Assembly: GCA_003225495.1 (NCBI GenBank)
Contig: QIAJ01000143.1
Coordinates: forward strand, 1-56,365
Source: Acidobacteriota bacterium
GTDB lineage: Bacteria > Acidobacteriota > Terriglobia > Terriglobales > Acidobacteriaceae
Reading direction: 5' to 3'
Length of the DNA: 56,365 bases
The notes under the pieces: model-generated
What the model saw: only the letters and a program-made list of their open reading frames with translations
Database searches by the model: none
Told to the model about the DNA's origin: nothing
Shown: in pieces, positions 33,815 to 39,753 of the stretch
Layout: each line of letters starts with the position of its first letter
Position numbering within the stretch: the first letter of the stretch is position 1
Position numbers and translations under genes: made by a program

Positions 33815-33843
33815 TTGACAGACCAATCGGTCGGTTTTAGTAT
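33815..33843 (+). promoter_or_regulatory. Promoter of the riboswitch-controlled sulfur operon
   Basis: TTGACA (33815-33820), 17 bases, then TAGTAT (33838-33843); transcription should start about 33850, some 25 bases before the SAM aptamer. The spacer holds the palindrome GACC-AATC-GGTC, a possible operator. Confidence 0.65.
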
Positions 33844-33873
33844 TTAGTTCAAGTACGCTCTTCGGAGCGGACT

Positions 33874-34052
33874 CGAATTTCATGCAGAGTGGCTGAGGGA
33901 CGAGCCCATAGACGCCACGGCAACCGAAACGGGATCATCTATCCCGCTTGACAGGTGCCAACTCTCGCCCGGTAACGGGGACCATGAGATTTGGGATACG
34001 CGAATTTGGTCGCATTTCCCAAGCCTCTTTTCCCATTTGGAAAAGGGGTTTT
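33874..34052 (+). promoter_or_regulatory. SAM-I-type riboswitch with transcription terminator
   Basis: The aptamer is 33874-33993. P1 is CGAATTTCAT (33874-33883) with ATGAGATTTG (33984-33993), including two wobble pairs. P2 is closed by GTGGC / GCCAC with a kink-turn-like TGA...AGAC. CGGCAACC, the P3 hairpin CGGGAT-CATCT-ATCCCG and GGTGCCAACTCTCGCC match the conserved SAM-I core. The terminator is CCTCTTTTCC (34024-34033) with GGAAAAGGGG (34039-34048) and TTTT. An antiterminator can form between 33986-33996 and 34017-34027 (10 of 11 pairs), using both the P1 3' arm and the terminator 5' arm. SAM should therefore switch transcription off. Confidence 0.88.
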
Positions 34053-34110
34053 GTCGTAACTGGGGTATTTTTTCCCGGCTCGTCCCGCAGTCACAGAAAG
34101 CAGTTGCGGA

Positions 34111-35397
34111 ATGTCGACGAGCCAATACCACCTTCGCTGCCGCGAATGCGGCAAGATCTTCGGCAATCAGCCACGCAGCCTTTGTGAAGATTGCTTCTCC
34201 CCTCTCGAAGTCACCTACGACTACGATTCGATTCGGCCGTTGGTTTCGCGCGAGCTGTTCGCTTCGCGCGCGCCCAATCTGTGGCGCTATCGCGAGTTGC
34301 TGCCGCTGCCGGAAGGCTTCCGGTCGTCGCTGCCCACCGGATACACGCCTCTTCTGAAAGCGCCGCAACTGGGACTGAAGATCGGATCGTCCAATCTCTA
34401 TGTCAAGAATGACGCCGTCTGCCTGCCGACCTTGAGCTTCAAAGATCGGGTGGTAGCGGTCGCGCTCGCCAATGCGCGCGAGTTTGGTTTCGACACGGTT
34501 GCGTGCTCTTCGACCGGTAACCTGGCCAATGCAGTCGCAGCGCAGGCGGCACGCGAAGGTTTCAAGGCATGGATTTTCATCCCGTCCGACCTCGAGCCGG
34601 CGAAGGTTCTGGGCACGCAGATTTTCGGCGCGCAACTGGTGCGGATCAACGGCAATTACGATCAGGTAAACCGGTTGTGCTCGCAGATTGCCGACGAACA
34701 TCGCTGGGGATTCGTCAATGTGAACTTGCGACCGTATTACGCCGAGGGGTCGAAGACGGTGGGCTTCGAAATCGCCGAACAGCTGGGCTGGCGGTTGCCG
34801 GACAACATCGTGGTGCCGATGGCTGGGGGATCGCTGATCACCAAGATCAAGAAAGCGTTCGACGAGTTGACCCAGCTTGGATTAGTCGAGCCGAAGCTGG
34901 TGAAGTTTTTTGGCGCGCAAGCGACTGGGTGCTCTCCGATTTCGACTGCGATCAAACAGTACAGCAATGAAATTGAACCGCAGCGGCCCGCAACCATCGC
35001 GCGGTCGCTCGCGATCGGTAATCCTGCCGATGGGCACTATGCGGTGAAGGCGATTACGGCGAGCGGCGGCTGGTCAGAGGATGTTTCGGATGCCGAAGTT
35101 GTTAACTCCATCAAGCTGCTGGCGGAAAGTGAAGGCATTTTCACCGAGACGGCGGGCGGGGTAACGGTGGGATCGGCTAGCAAGCTGATCCGTCAGGATC
35201 GCATTCTTCCTGAGGAGACGACTGTGCTCTGCATTACGGGCAATGGCCTCAAGACGACTGACGTGCTCGCCGGACAATATGAAGTCGAAGTGCCGATCGC
35301 GCCGAAACTGCGCGAATTCGAAGTACTTCTTGAAAACAAACTAAGTGGCGTTCCAACTTTTGCCGGCGAGAGGCCGGCGCTGACTGTGGAGGTCTAG
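34111..35397 (+). CDS. thrC: Threonine-synthase-like PLP enzyme under a SAM riboswitch
   Basis: The 428-residue fold-type II PLP enzyme is related to threonine synthase, which converts O-phosphohomoserine to threonine. It has an N-terminal zinc ribbon (Cys10, Cys13, Cys25, Cys28) and the PLP lysine Lys111 in LPTLSFKDRVVAVAL, where ordinary threonine synthases have PTGSFKDRG. Phosphate- and PLP-binding segments SSTGNLANAVAAQAA and VPMAGGSLITKI are intact. It is controlled by a SAM riboswitch and is followed without a gap by a CysO-like sulfur carrier. This context fits sulfur-amino-acid synthesis better than threonine synthesis: the enzyme may use a protein thiocarboxylate as sulfur donor. That role is inference; plain threonine synthase is the alternative. 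Confidence 0.85.
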   Translation: MSTSQYHLRCRECGKIFGNQPRSLCEDCFSPLEVTYDYDSIRPLVSRELFASRAPNLWRYRELLPLPEGFRSSLPTGYTPLLKAPQLGLKIGSSNLYVKNDAVCLPTLSFKDRVVAVALANAREFGFDTVACSSTGNLANAVAAQAAREGFKAWIFIPSDLEPAKVLGTQIFGAQLVRINGNYDQVNRLCSQIADEHRWGFVNVNLRPYYAEGSKTVGFEIAEQLGWRLPDNIVVPMAGGSLITKIKKAFDELTQLGLVEPKLVKFFGAQATGCSPISTAIKQYSNEIEPQRPATIARSLAIGNPADGHYAVKAITASGGWSEDVSDAEVVNSIKLLAESEGIFTETAGGVTVGSASKLIRQDRILPEETTVLCITGNGLKTTDVLAGQYEVEVPIAPKLREFEVLLENKLSGVPTFAGERPALTVEV

Positions 35398-35679
35398 ATG
35401 AGCATCACTGTACAGATTCCAACCGCGCTCCGCCGGCTGACAGCCGGTACGCCGAGCATTCATTGTGCCGCCTCGAACTTGCCGGAATTGTTTTCCGTGC
35501 TCGACACGGAGTTTCCGGACCTCAAGCCGCATCTCCGCGATGAGGCGGGACAAACGCGGCGCTTCCTGAATGTATACGTGAACGAAGAGGACATCCGCTT
35601 TCTCGGCGGGAATACATACGCGTTCCAGGATGGCGACGAGGTTCTGTTGGTACCTTCGATTGCGGGCGGATCTCGCTAA
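35398..35679 (+). CDS. CysO/MoaD-like sulfur carrier protein
   Basis: The 93-residue ubiquitin-like protein closely recalls CysO of mycobacteria from memory: ITVQIPTALRRLTAGTPSIH at the start and RRFLNVYVNEEDIRFLGG, then DGDEVLLVPSIAGGSR at the end. In CysO and MoaD the C-terminal Gly-Gly is made into a thiocarboxylate that donates sulfur. Here Gly90-Gly91 is followed by Ser-Arg, so a protease would have to remove two residues first, as a JAMM-type protease does for HcyS and QbsE. The ATG directly follows the stop of the thrC-like gene, so the two are surely cotranscribed. No activating (MoeB-like) or protease gene is in the window. Confidence 0.88.
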   Translation: MSITVQIPTALRRLTAGTPSIHCAASNLPELFSVLDTEFPDLKPHLRDEAGQTRRFLNVYVNEEDIRFLGGNTYAFQDGDEVLLVPSIAGGSR

Positions 35680-35796: not shown

Positions 35797-36471
35797 ATGC
35801 CTGCCTCCATTCGCACACGCCTCGGTACGCGCGGAAAGCCGGAAGAGAGCCGAGCCGCCATCCTGAAAGCGGCGATCAATGAATTCTCCGAGCACGGCAT
35901 CGCCGGCGCTCGGACCGATGCGATCGCCGCAGCGGCCCGCGTCAACAAGGCTCTGCTTTACTACTACTTCAAAGACAAGGAAGCAATCTATCAAGCGGTG
36001 CTCGATCAGGTCTTCAGTGGCCTGCGCGACACGGTTGTGCCGACCCTGCATGGAAATCTCGCGCCGCGACAAAAGGTACTCAACTATCTCGGCGCTTACT
36101 TCGACTACATTGCGGCCAATCCGCGCTTCCCACGAGTGGTGCAGGGGGAATGGATTCGCACTGGCAGCGACCGCGTCGGGCAGATGAAGCGCGTAGCGAA
36201 AAACTACTTTCAGCCGATTTACCAGAAGCTCGGCGAAGTACTGAGAGAAGGAATTGCGGCGGGAGAATTCCGGCCCATCGATCCTGCGCAGTTCATTCCG
36301 TCCATGGTCGCAATCATTGTTTTTTATTTCAGTGCGGCTCCGGTCATAAAGACGCTGATGAAAGTCGATCCGCTCGCGCCGGAGCGTATCGCAGAACGGC
36401 GGGCGTTCGTTCTTGACTTCATCTCGACTGGGCTGTTCACGCGCACAGGTCCGCTGGGAGGCCGCTCATGA
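35797..36471 (+). CDS. TetR-family transcriptional repressor
   Basis: The 224-residue protein has the TetR helix-turn-helix at about residues 18-66 (ESRAAILKAAINEFSEHGIAGARTDAIAAAARVNKALLYYYFKDKEAIYQAV) and a C-terminal ligand-binding domain of the AcrR/CerR-like type (PIYQKLGEVLREGIAAGEFRPIDPAQFIPSMVAIIVFYF). It is the first gene of an efflux operon and probably responds to a substrate of that pump. The palindrome at 35775-35794 is its likely operator. Its stop overlaps the HlyD gene (ATGA). Confidence 0.92.
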   Translation: MPASIRTRLGTRGKPEESRAAILKAAINEFSEHGIAGARTDAIAAAARVNKALLYYYFKDKEAIYQAVLDQVFSGLRDTVVPTLHGNLAPRQKVLNYLGAYFDYIAANPRFPRVVQGEWIRTGSDRVGQMKRVAKNYFQPIYQKLGEVLREGIAAGEFRPIDPAQFIPSMVAIIVFYFSAAPVIKTLMKVDPLAPERIAERRAFVLDFISTGLFTRTGPLGGRS

Positions 36472-37568
36472 GTGTGCGCAACAAATTTCTGATCTTGCTT
36501 AGCGTGATTGTTCTCATCGCTTCCGCGTATTACTTCTTCTCAACGCCCAGCGGGAACGACCTTGTGCTGGTCGGCACTGTCGACTCGAATCAGGTCGTAG
36601 TCAGCCCACAGGTCGGCGGACGAATCGCAAAGTTGCTGGTGGAAGAAGGCTCTTCAGTAAAGCAGGGGGATCTGATCGCGGTGCTCGATCCCGCCGAGCT
36701 CGAGGCGCAGGAACGGGCCGCCGCGGCGACCATCGCCAGCCTTCGCTCGAAGGTCAGCGAGAGCCAGTACACGCAGCGTTCGACGAAGGGCGCGACTTCC
36801 AGCGACGTGGAGAATGCGCAGGCGCGGCTGCAGGCCGCCCGGGCGCAACTCGCGCAGGCAGAAGCGACCCTGACGCGAGTCGAAAGTGACACCCGGCGGA
36901 TCGTCGGACTCGCGCAGGCCGGAGTCGCCTCTGACATGGAGAAGGTGCAGGCCGAGCAGAATTTGAAAGCCCAGCAGGCGAGCGTGCAGGCGCTGAAAGA
37001 TCAGGTTCACGCGGCACAGGCCGATCTCGATTCCGCAATCGCGCGTACGAACCAGGCAGGAGCGGCGCAGAGTACAGTGGCGTCCACCCGGGCCCAGGTC
37101 GCAAATGCCCAGGCACAGTTGAAAGAGGCGGAAGTACGACTCGGTTACACAAAGATTTATGCCCCGGTAACCGGAACCGTACTGGTGCGTGCTGCTCGCG
37201 AGGGCGAAGTCCTGATGGCGGGGCAAGCGATCGTCACCCTGGTTGACCTTAGCGACACATGGGTGCGCGCCGCTATTCCAGAGACGGATGCCGATCACAT
37301 CGGACTCGGAGACACCCTGCGCGTCCGCCTCCCCGGGGGCACGGTCACCCAGGGCAAAGTGTTTTTCAAAGCGGCTGAGGCGGATTTCGCCACGCAACGC
37401 GATGTGGGCCGCCGCAAGCGGGATATTCGAACGCTGGTACTGAAGGTGCGCCTCGATAATCCGAAAGGCGCGTACGTGCCCGGCATGACCGCGGAAGTGC
37501 TGGTAGCGAGTGACCAACTGAAAGGCGCGGCAGCGTCGAAGAGCGCGGAAGCAGCGGGTAAACCGTGA
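36468..37568 (+). CDS. HlyD-family membrane fusion protein
   Basis: The 366-residue periplasmic adaptor has an N-terminal membrane anchor (about residues 6-24, KFLILLSVIVLIASAYYFF). The first half of the lipoyl domain is VVVSPQVGGRIAKLLVEEGSSVKQGDLIAVLDP. A coiled-coil hairpin (about 70-205) is rich in Ala, Gln and Glu. The second lipoyl half is TKIYAPVTGTVLVRAAREGEV, followed by the beta-barrel domain (TWVRAAIPETDADHIGLGD). It links the ABC transporter to an outer-membrane channel not present in the window. It overlaps both neighbours by four bases. Confidence 0.92.
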   Translation: MSVRNKFLILLSVIVLIASAYYFFSTPSGNDLVLVGTVDSNQVVVSPQVGGRIAKLLVEEGSSVKQGDLIAVLDPAELEAQERAAAATIASLRSKVSESQYTQRSTKGATSSDVENAQARLQAARAQLAQAEATLTRVESDTRRIVGLAQAGVASDMEKVQAEQNLKAQQASVQALKDQVHAAQADLDSAIARTNQAGAAQSTVASTRAQVANAQAQLKEAEVRLGYTKIYAPVTGTVLVRAAREGEVLMAGQAIVTLVDLSDTWVRAAIPETDADHIGLGDTLRVRLPGGTVTQGKVFFKAAEADFATQRDVGRRKRDIRTLVLKVRLDNPKGAYVPGMTAEVLVASDQLKGAAASKSAEAAGKP

Positions 37569-38644
37569 GTGCAGAATTGAGCAAGAATAATAATGCTGCG
37601 CTTCCGGTATTGGATTTTAACGGAAAGAGTGACATTCCCACTGATGCGCCGAACGCGATTGAGGTCTCGCACATCGTGAAAAAGTATGGCGACTTCACCG
37701 CCGTGGACGATGTTTCATTCCAGGTGAAGGAGGGCGAGATTTTCGGCCTGCTGGGTCCGAATGGCGCGGGTAAATCGACGCTGATCCGCATGATGACGAC
37801 ACTCATCCCGATCACTGCGGGGTCGGCGCACATCGCCGGACACAACGTAAGCAAAGAACCCGACGAAGCGCGACGAGCTATTGGCGTGATCCCGCAGGCG
37901 TTGACCAGCGATCTCGATCTGACGATTGAAGAGAATCTCAATATCTACGCCAAGCTTTATGACGTTCCGGCGAAAAGACGGAAAGAGGCGATCGATGAAC
38001 TGCTGGAGACTGTCGACCTGACGAAATGGCGACATGCGCAAACCAAGACTCTATCCGGCGGCATGCGTAGACGCTTAGAGATTGCCCGGGGGCTGGTTCA
38101 CAGTCCGAAAATTTTCTTTCTCGATGAACCCACCACGGGCCTCGACCCGGTTTCTCGCGTGGCAGTTTGGGAGATGCTTACCAGCATCAAATCCAAACGC
38201 AAGCTCACCGTGCTGATTACTACCCATTACATGGATGAAGCTGATCGTCTCTGCAACCGCATTGCGATTGTCGATCACGGCAAACTTGCGGCGCTTGATA
38301 CCCCAGAGGCGTTAAAGGCCAGCGTACCCGGATCGACTGTCATCGAGGTCCAGTTTGATAATCCGCCGGCCGACTGGGAACAACGGCTGCGCGGTTTGTC
38401 TGAAGTCACTTCCGTCCAGCATCAGGCAGCGGGCATGTACCGCGTCTTGACTGCGAATGGTTCTCGTACGACGACTGCGCTGGTCGAGATCGCCGTCGAT
38501 GCCGGGGTGCCAGTGCGAACTTTGACCGTGCAAAACACGACACTCGACGACGTTTTTGTCCATTACACCGGCCGTCAGTTACGCGACGAACTGGTAAAGG
38601 CTCATCAGTTTGAGATGCCGCAGAGACCCGGGATGCGCCCATGA
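37565..38644 (+). CDS. ABC transporter ATP-binding protein (ABC-2 exporter)
   Basis: The 359-residue ATPase (GTG start, overlapping the HlyD stop by four bases) has Walker A GPNGAGKST, a Q-loop in IGVIPQALTSDLDLTIEENL, signature LSGGMRRRLE, Walker B FFLDEPTTGLD and the H-loop in TTHYMDEADRL. The C-terminal 100 residues (VIEVQFDNPPADWEQRL, then TLDDVFVHYTGRQLRD) are those of the drug and lantibiotic export class (YhhJ/YbhF-like). It has a 30-residue N-terminal lead before the domain. It powers the permease encoded next. Confidence 0.94.
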   Translation: MSAELSKNNNAALPVLDFNGKSDIPTDAPNAIEVSHIVKKYGDFTAVDDVSFQVKEGEIFGLLGPNGAGKSTLIRMMTTLIPITAGSAHIAGHNVSKEPDEARRAIGVIPQALTSDLDLTIEENLNIYAKLYDVPAKRRKEAIDELLETVDLTKWRHAQTKTLSGGMRRRLEIARGLVHSPKIFFLDEPTTGLDPVSRVAVWEMLTSIKSKRKLTVLITTHYMDEADRLCNRIAIVDHGKLAALDTPEALKASVPGSTVIEVQFDNPPADWEQRLRGLSEVTSVQHQAAGMYRVLTANGSRTTTALVEIAVDAGVPVRTLTVQNTTLDDVFVHYTGRQLRDELVKAHQFEMPQRPGMRP

Positions 38645-39753
38645 ACCGGATGATGGCGATTATCGAACGCGAGATGCGGAAGTTCTTCCGTTCGCCCGCG
38701 CTGATGATGGTCTCGATGATTTTTCCGTTGGTGCAATTGATTGTGCTGGGGAACGCCTTTGGCGGCAAAATTCGCGATGCCAAGCTGGGTATCGTCGATG
38801 AAGATCACGGCACGCAGGCAATCCGAATCAAGGAAGCCTTCGATTCGGTACGCGCGAATTCGAGGACCTTCCTTCCGGTCGAGTACGGCAATGAGGTGCA
38901 GGCACGAGAAGACGTCCGGAATGGCAAAATTCAGGGAGCAGTGATCATCCCGCCTCAGTACTCGGCGAGGGTGTATGAGAAGAATCGGCCGCGCATTGCT
39001 CTCATCGTCGACAACAGCGACAACTTCATGAGTTCCACCATGGAGGAAAAGCTGACCGGAATCACCGCCGCATTGAATGAGCCCGACGTCGAGCCACGAT
39101 TACTGCAGCAGACCGCGCTCGATGTCGTGGAGCTCTATCCCTATATCGAGTACATGAAGTACCTGCTGCCGGGGTCTATTGCGCTCGCGATGTTCGTATC
39201 GGTGATGATCGGCGGCGGCATGTTGTACATCGACGATAAGGCGCGAGGAATCCACGAAGGTTATCTGGTCACGCCCATCACGAAAGCTGAGTTGGTATTT
39301 GGATTGACCGGCGCGGGCGCGATCAAGGCTGTGCTGACAGGAGTGGTCATCACTGTGATCGGTTCCCTGATCGCCGGCGTCGGAACGATTTTAAATTTCC
39401 CGACAATCATTGGACTGGTGTTGCTGATAGCGAGCGTTTCGATGGCATTCAACGGGATGATGTTCCTGATGATGGTGCGCGTTGAAGATCCGCTGGTGCC
39501 GCGCGCGGTCTTTGGAATTCTGAATACTCTGCTTTTCTTCCCCAGCGGTTCGATCTACCCCGTACAAGCGTTTCCGGCATGGCTCCGAGCTATCGCAAAG
39601 GTCGATCCGTTTACCTACGCAGTGCACGGATTTAAGGCGCTGCTATTGAAGGAAAGCGGGCTGGTGGCGATTGTCCCAGACGTGTTTTACTTGTCGATTT
39701 TCGCAGTCGTAACTCTGTCGTTCGCTGTGCCGTTGTTCAAGCGTACGCTATGA
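38641..39753 (+). CDS. ABC-2 family transporter permease
   Basis: The 370-residue permease has one N-terminal membrane helix (MMVSMIFPLVQLIVLGNAF), a large outside domain (about residues 45-175) and five C-terminal helices, including LPGSIALAMFVSVMIGGGMLYIDD, IIGLVLLIASVSMAFNGMMFLM and a re-entrant-like segment LFFPSGSIYPVQAFPAWLRAIAKVDPFTYAVHGFKALL, typical of ABC-2 drug exporters. Its ATG overlaps the ATPase stop by four bases. With HlyD and the ATPase it forms a YbhGFSR-like efflux system. Confidence 0.93.
   Translation: MNRMMAIIEREMRKFFRSPALMMVSMIFPLVQLIVLGNAFGGKIRDAKLGIVDEDHGTQAIRIKEAFDSVRANSRTFLPVEYGNEVQAREDVRNGKIQGAVIIPPQYSARVYEKNRPRIALIVDNSDNFMSSTMEEKLTGITAALNEPDVEPRLLQQTALDVVELYPYIEYMKYLLPGSIALAMFVSVMIGGGMLYIDDKARGIHEGYLVTPITKAELVFGLTGAGAIKAVLTGVVITVIGSLIAGVGTILNFPTIIGLVLLIASVSMAFNGMMFLMMVRVEDPLVPRAVFGILNTLLFFPSGSIYPVQAFPAWLRAIAKVDPFTYAVHGFKALLLKESGLVAIVPDVFYLSIFAVVTLSFAVPLFKRTL

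Follow-up and report, generated by a model that had tools for sequence, protein, structure and literature searches.

A SAM-riboswitch-associated MetM/MetO-like gene pair from Acidobacteriota with a predicted role in homocysteine synthesis

MetM of Streptomyces, a homologue of threonine synthase (ThrC), converts O-phosphohomoserine to homocysteine, and in S. albulus the carrier gene metO lies beside metM with a SAM riboswitch upstream, as these findings are summarized in a later paper (Hasebe, Adachi, Maruyama and Hamano 2024, Appl Environ Microbiol 90:e01247-24, cited in PMC12172450). A homologue from Microcystis shares 51.6% identity with S. albulus MetM and likewise adjoins a metO-like gene; in 2025 it was reported to form threonine from O-phosphohomoserine in vitro; threonine was also deaminated, and homocysteine formation was not clear (PMC12172450). 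Methionine synthesis through a protein thiocarboxylate is also on record for HcyS and MetY of Wolinella (Krishnamoorthy and Begley 2011, as cited in PMC5764234), which in that account resembles the route proposed below in making homocysteine from an activated homoserine and carrier thiocarboxylate sulfur. A further relative is the CysM/CysO/Mec/MoeZ system of Mycobacterium tuberculosis, which pairs a CysO-like carrier with a fold-type II pyridoxal phosphate (PLP) enzyme. MetO reportedly works as a thiocarboxylate, and canonical homocysteine genes are said to be missing from Streptomyces that have MetM/MetO; the Wolinella route reportedly uses O-acetylhomoserine and MetY, a fold-type I enzyme and not a ThrC-type one.

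Here we describe a gene pair of the MetM/MetO kind from a different phylum. The window, the whole stretch of 56,365 nucleotides that was analysed, belongs to an acidobacterial draft genome of 4.54 Mb (completeness 91.6%) and contains the following features.

33815-33843, forward strand: sigma-70-like promoter, TTGACA-17-TAGTAT, matching the consensus at 10 of 12 positions
33877-33990, forward strand: SAM-I riboswitch aptamer, RF00162 (66.7 bits, gathering score 44.4, E 2.1e-13)
33991-34053, forward strand: probable expression platform with putative hairpin(s), the second being CCUCUUUUCC-loop-GGAAAAGGGG, then UUUUGU
34111-35397, forward strand: MetM-like enzyme, a predicted homocysteine synthase (fold-type II PLP enzyme of the ThrC family), 428 amino acids, with PLP lysine K111 in PTLSFKDR
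35398-35679, forward strand: MetO-like sulfur carrier (ThiS/MoaD/CysO fold), 93 amino acids, C terminus AGG-SR

We consider it highly likely, from comparative sequence evidence, that this pair is an acidobacterial MetM/MetO and would make homocysteine from O-phosphohomoserine and carrier sulfur. It shares with the Streptomyces system, so far as PMC12172450 describes the latter, a ThrC-family enzyme, an adjoining sulfur-carrier gene and an upstream SAM riboswitch, and is a well-supported addition to the known MetM/MetO pathway, not a new pathway. The original prediction for this DNA had held that no homocysteine route of this kind was described; this was mistaken, MetM/MetO having been published in 2024 (Hasebe et al., cited in PMC12172450). 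Our literature search retrieved no paper tying a ThrC-riboswitch pair to Acidobacteria.

The leader is hairpin-rich. Two sigma-70-like sites were observed in the locus region against 0.2 expected. The SAM-I aptamer is the only one in the genome and has counterparts at the same position upstream of the homologue in 49 other genomes, one of these presumed across a contig break. On the 3′ side of the aptamer, folding placed a stable hairpin (z -2.9) that carries a short run of U; a terminator scan of the leader did not call it as a terminator, and it is a plausible expression platform of the aptamer.

The enzyme would ordinarily be annotated as threonine synthase because its score against TIGR00260 (thrC), 272.9 bits, exceeds the curated cut-off of 167.1. 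It shares with ThrC the fold, the PLP lysine region, the C-terminal TGNGLK motif and probably the substrate. The lysine motif PTLSFKDR, correctly noted as altered in the original prediction, was kept in the 20 relatives first aligned, whereas an actinobacterial relative from Nonomuraea has PTHSFKDR. That relative is 53.5% identical with the same architecture, and its locus has the order riboswitch-metM-metO found in the window; this order, together with the published MetM/MetO, identifies the window pair as a member of the MetM/MetO kind in another phylum.

The carrier frame begins on the very next base after the enzyme stop codon (TAG|ATG), leaving no gap. Its product matches PF02597 (41.6 bits, ThiS/MoaD fold), and among solved proteins M. 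tuberculosis CysO is closest to it (3dwg, E 6e-18); the riboswitch, the ThrC-annotated enzyme and the gapless CysO/MoaD-like carrier that had been read from the DNA alone are thus all present. What that reading did not list is that the carrier does not end at GG but continues with two residues, SR, unlike the Streptomyces carrier, so that trimming is probably needed. Across the loci, the residues past GG number none in 31, two in 34 and up to about 27 in others, a free variation that would fit their removal before the carrier is used. All 71 good genomes encode Mec-type JAB proteins, and we infer that Mec trims the carrier. A carrier gene directly follows metM in 114 of 131 loci: 46 of the 53 from Acidobacteriota and 68 of the 78 taken from the genome collection. 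The remaining 17 have none adjoining metM. One frame 3′ of metM (L051, genome G022) stops after about 19 residues, through either a broken gene or a sequencing error.

Some carriers have more elaborate ends. In three loci (L158:6268-6783, L160:6263-6778 and L172:6257-6772) the GG of a MetO-like carrier is followed, in the same polypeptide, by a NIL domain (PF09383), of the type known from MetN, the ATPase of the methionine transporter. With the GG thus internal, either the fusion has to be cleaved or its NIL part acts as a sensor; no paper connecting MoaD with NIL domains was found in our literature search. Some carriers of L066, L067 and L083 have cysteine-rich tails past GG, such as CCSYCGQEECICGD, which are possibly metal-binding.

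To place the enzyme, we built a maximum-likelihood tree of 68 proteins, comprising 43 metM-like sequences and 25 ThrC (three of them solved), with S. albulus MetM not among them. A branch with 100/100 support parts the two sets, and the window enzyme groups apart from the solved and the thrB-linked threonine synthases. The metM-like clade spans Acidobacteriota, Nitrospinota, Nitrospirota, Cyanobacteria, Planctomycetota, Actinomycetota and others, with the Nonomuraea and cyanobacterial homologues inside it. Its members invariantly carry N205, R207 and Y210 (window numbering) where Thermus thermophilus ThrC has S155, N157 and R160, and nearly all carry T347 in place of P288. The N157/R160 region of ThrC is presumably where the substrate phosphate binds.

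These features bear on the simplest alternative, an ordinary threonine synthase that stands behind a SAM riboswitch by chance, its neighbouring carrier serving other enzymes. The TIGR00260 score and the threonine synthase activity reported in vitro for the Microcystis member (PMC12172450) speak for it; against it stand the separate clade with its changed conserved residues, R207/Y210 for the conserved N157/R160, the SAM regulation, the adjoining carrier and the replacement of MetX described below. Moreover, a second, ordinary threonine synthase is encoded elsewhere in the same genome (C14; NF006050, 570.7 bits, cut-off 303), and congeners retain a thrC adjoining thrB. Clade, regulation and co-existing ThrC led us to reject this reading as very unlikely. 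The separate ThrC also answers the suggestion made with the original prediction that a canonical thrC be sought in the genome; ThrB was not over its cut-off in a profile search, probably owing to draft incompleteness, as nearly all congeners have ThrB. Two further PLP gene fragments of the genome were considered as a second MetM or ThrC and rejected, being CysK-like and IlvA-like.

The retained TGNGLK motif and the reported Microcystis activity (PMC12172450) would also suit a bifunctional enzyme at a branch point, which would make homocysteine when the thiocarboxylated carrier is present and threonine when it is absent and water enters. The original prediction had named homologues with the LSFKDR motif that are proven threonine synthases as evidence against itself, and the Microcystis report supplies this in part. 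The residue changes lie near the substrate region, however, and SAM-controlled expression beside a co-existing ThrC would make a threonine role unnecessary here; we judge such a switch quite improbable for the window enzyme. Extended to the whole clade, with thiocarboxylated MetO directing the product to homocysteine and water to threonine, the idea is unlikely, but if true it would explain the cyanobacterial threonine synthase activity, and carrier charging, besides the riboswitch, would switch between methionine and threonine.

The predicted homocysteine function draws good support from how the pair is regulated, from its gene order and phylogeny, and from the replacement of MetX. For regulation, we surveyed SAM-I riboswitch matches over cut-off in 101 related genomes. 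Exactly one was found in each of 52 genomes, and 50 of the 52 belong to a metM-like gene: 49 lie 88-272 bases upstream on the same strand, and in the fiftieth (G072) a contig end divides the pair, the link being presumed across the break. metM is thus nearly the only SAM-I target in Acidobacteriota (Terriglobia and relatives), and SAM-I regulation in this group marks the homocysteine step. Both exceptions belong to one family (f7). In G087, a genome without metM, the riboswitch is on a cystathionine gamma-synthase-like gene (L243:4668-6197); in G094 the sole SAM-I riboswitch precedes a NifS-type cysteine desulfurase (L244:2357-3750), with metM elsewhere and without a riboswitch. This desulfurase is a possible sulfur source for the carrier thiocarboxylate.

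The replacement of MetX was assessed in genomes at least 90% complete, 54 with metM and 21 without. MetX is present in 3 of the former and 15 of the latter (Fisher 1.4e-8, ignoring shared ancestry). The same pattern holds for any acyltransferase, MetX or MetA (8/54 versus 15/21; 5e-6, again ignoring shared ancestry), and for true MetY (6/54 versus 13/21; 2e-5, with the same disregard of ancestry). In the window's genus, 13 of 14 metM-bearing genomes of this completeness have no acyltransferase, and thrB is over cut-off in 51 of the 54 metM-bearing genomes. In Acidobacteriota (Terriglobia and relatives), then, the metM route for the most part takes the place of MetX. Four nearly complete relatives (G024, G033, G046 and G048) have no metM, MetX, MetA or recognisable ThrB and are either auxotrophic or rely on some further route.

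Gene neighbourhoods point the same way on substrate: metM adjoins thrB in three loci (L069, L070 and L230), which indicates O-phosphohomoserine. Part of metH lies near metM in L084. Two loci of one family (L073:4206-6576 and L077:4945-7285) have a SAM riboswitch and metM followed by a MoeB/ThiF-type adenylyltransferase gene, with no carrier; in L077, asd comes next. An array in G099 (L221:3362-9236) runs SAM riboswitch-metM-metY-metX-thrB with no carrier gene, placing two homocysteine routes together.

A carrier whose closest solved relative is CysO could instead suggest cysteine formation from O-phosphoserine in the fashion of CysM/CysO, the other chemistry offered in the original prediction. 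Here the enzyme is ThrC-like and not CysM-like, with O-phosphohomoserine as predicted substrate and homocysteine as predicted product, and thrB adjoins metM in several genomes. The window locus has no Mec gene and no CysM-type enzyme beside the carrier; the genome instead encodes a complete CysM-Mec-CysO-MoeZ cluster at another locus (C7), and on this ground we rejected the cysteine reading, to which we give next to no weight. Of the chemistry first proposed, the conversion of phosphohomoserine to homocysteine is thus strongly supported by comparative genomics and that of phosphoserine to cysteine is unlikely.

The window's genome also resembles the MetM/MetO-bearing Streptomyces in that a profile search found no MetX, MetA or MetY over cut-off, and it encodes two further PLP enzymes of cysteine and methionine metabolism (C40 and C243). 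Either might be a plant-type cystathionine gamma-synthase that forms homocysteine by way of O-phosphohomoserine and cysteine, the riboswitch pair serving something else, and congeners do have a C40 homologue within a few kilobases of thrC-thrB. The C40 gene, however, best fits models of methionine gamma-lyase and cystathionine gamma-lyase, below their cut-offs; a CysK-like gene precedes that of C243, an arrangement as in reverse transsulfuration; and a scan of both loci found no SAM riboswitch at either. We regard this explanation as vanishingly improbable.

For the favoured MetM/MetO function we propose the following mechanism. At low SAM, transcription of the leader would continue into metM-metO. 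A JAMM (Mec-type) peptidase would cut the carrier back to GG, after which a MoeZ/MoeB-type enzyme would adenylate it and sulfur would be loaded to form the C-terminal thiocarboxylate; both the trimming and the activation proteins are encoded in the genome, as in the M. tuberculosis system, and Mec and MoeZ may serve this carrier. MetM would bind O-phospho-L-homoserine, supplied by homoserine kinase, as a PLP aldimine, eliminate the phosphate and add the carrier sulfur at the gamma carbon, where ThrC adds water. Hydrolysis would release homocysteine for methylation to methionine by MetH, part of which is present at a contig end of the genome.

The implications reach beyond this genome. The standard model scores clade proteins as threonine synthase, and their genomes would look like methionine auxotrophs; homologous loci occur in Nitrospinota, Nitrospirota, Planctomycetota, Cyanobacteria, Omnitrophota and others. 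Among cultured relatives, Edaphobacter has the pair. Many proteins now labelled 'ThrC' are accordingly candidates for re-annotation, recognizable by a ThrC-like gene with a downstream carrier, often an upstream SAM riboswitch, and R207/Y210 (window numbering).

A phage search gave no match to the metM-metO locus. Downstream of the pair, at 35797-39753, lie genes for a TetR regulator, an HlyD-type membrane fusion protein, an ABC ATPase and an ABC-2 permease, which likely form an efflux operon. The palindrome TAACTAACCGGTTAATTA stands upstream of the TetR gene, and several congeners (L089, L090 and L091) keep the efflux-type gene set beside metM.
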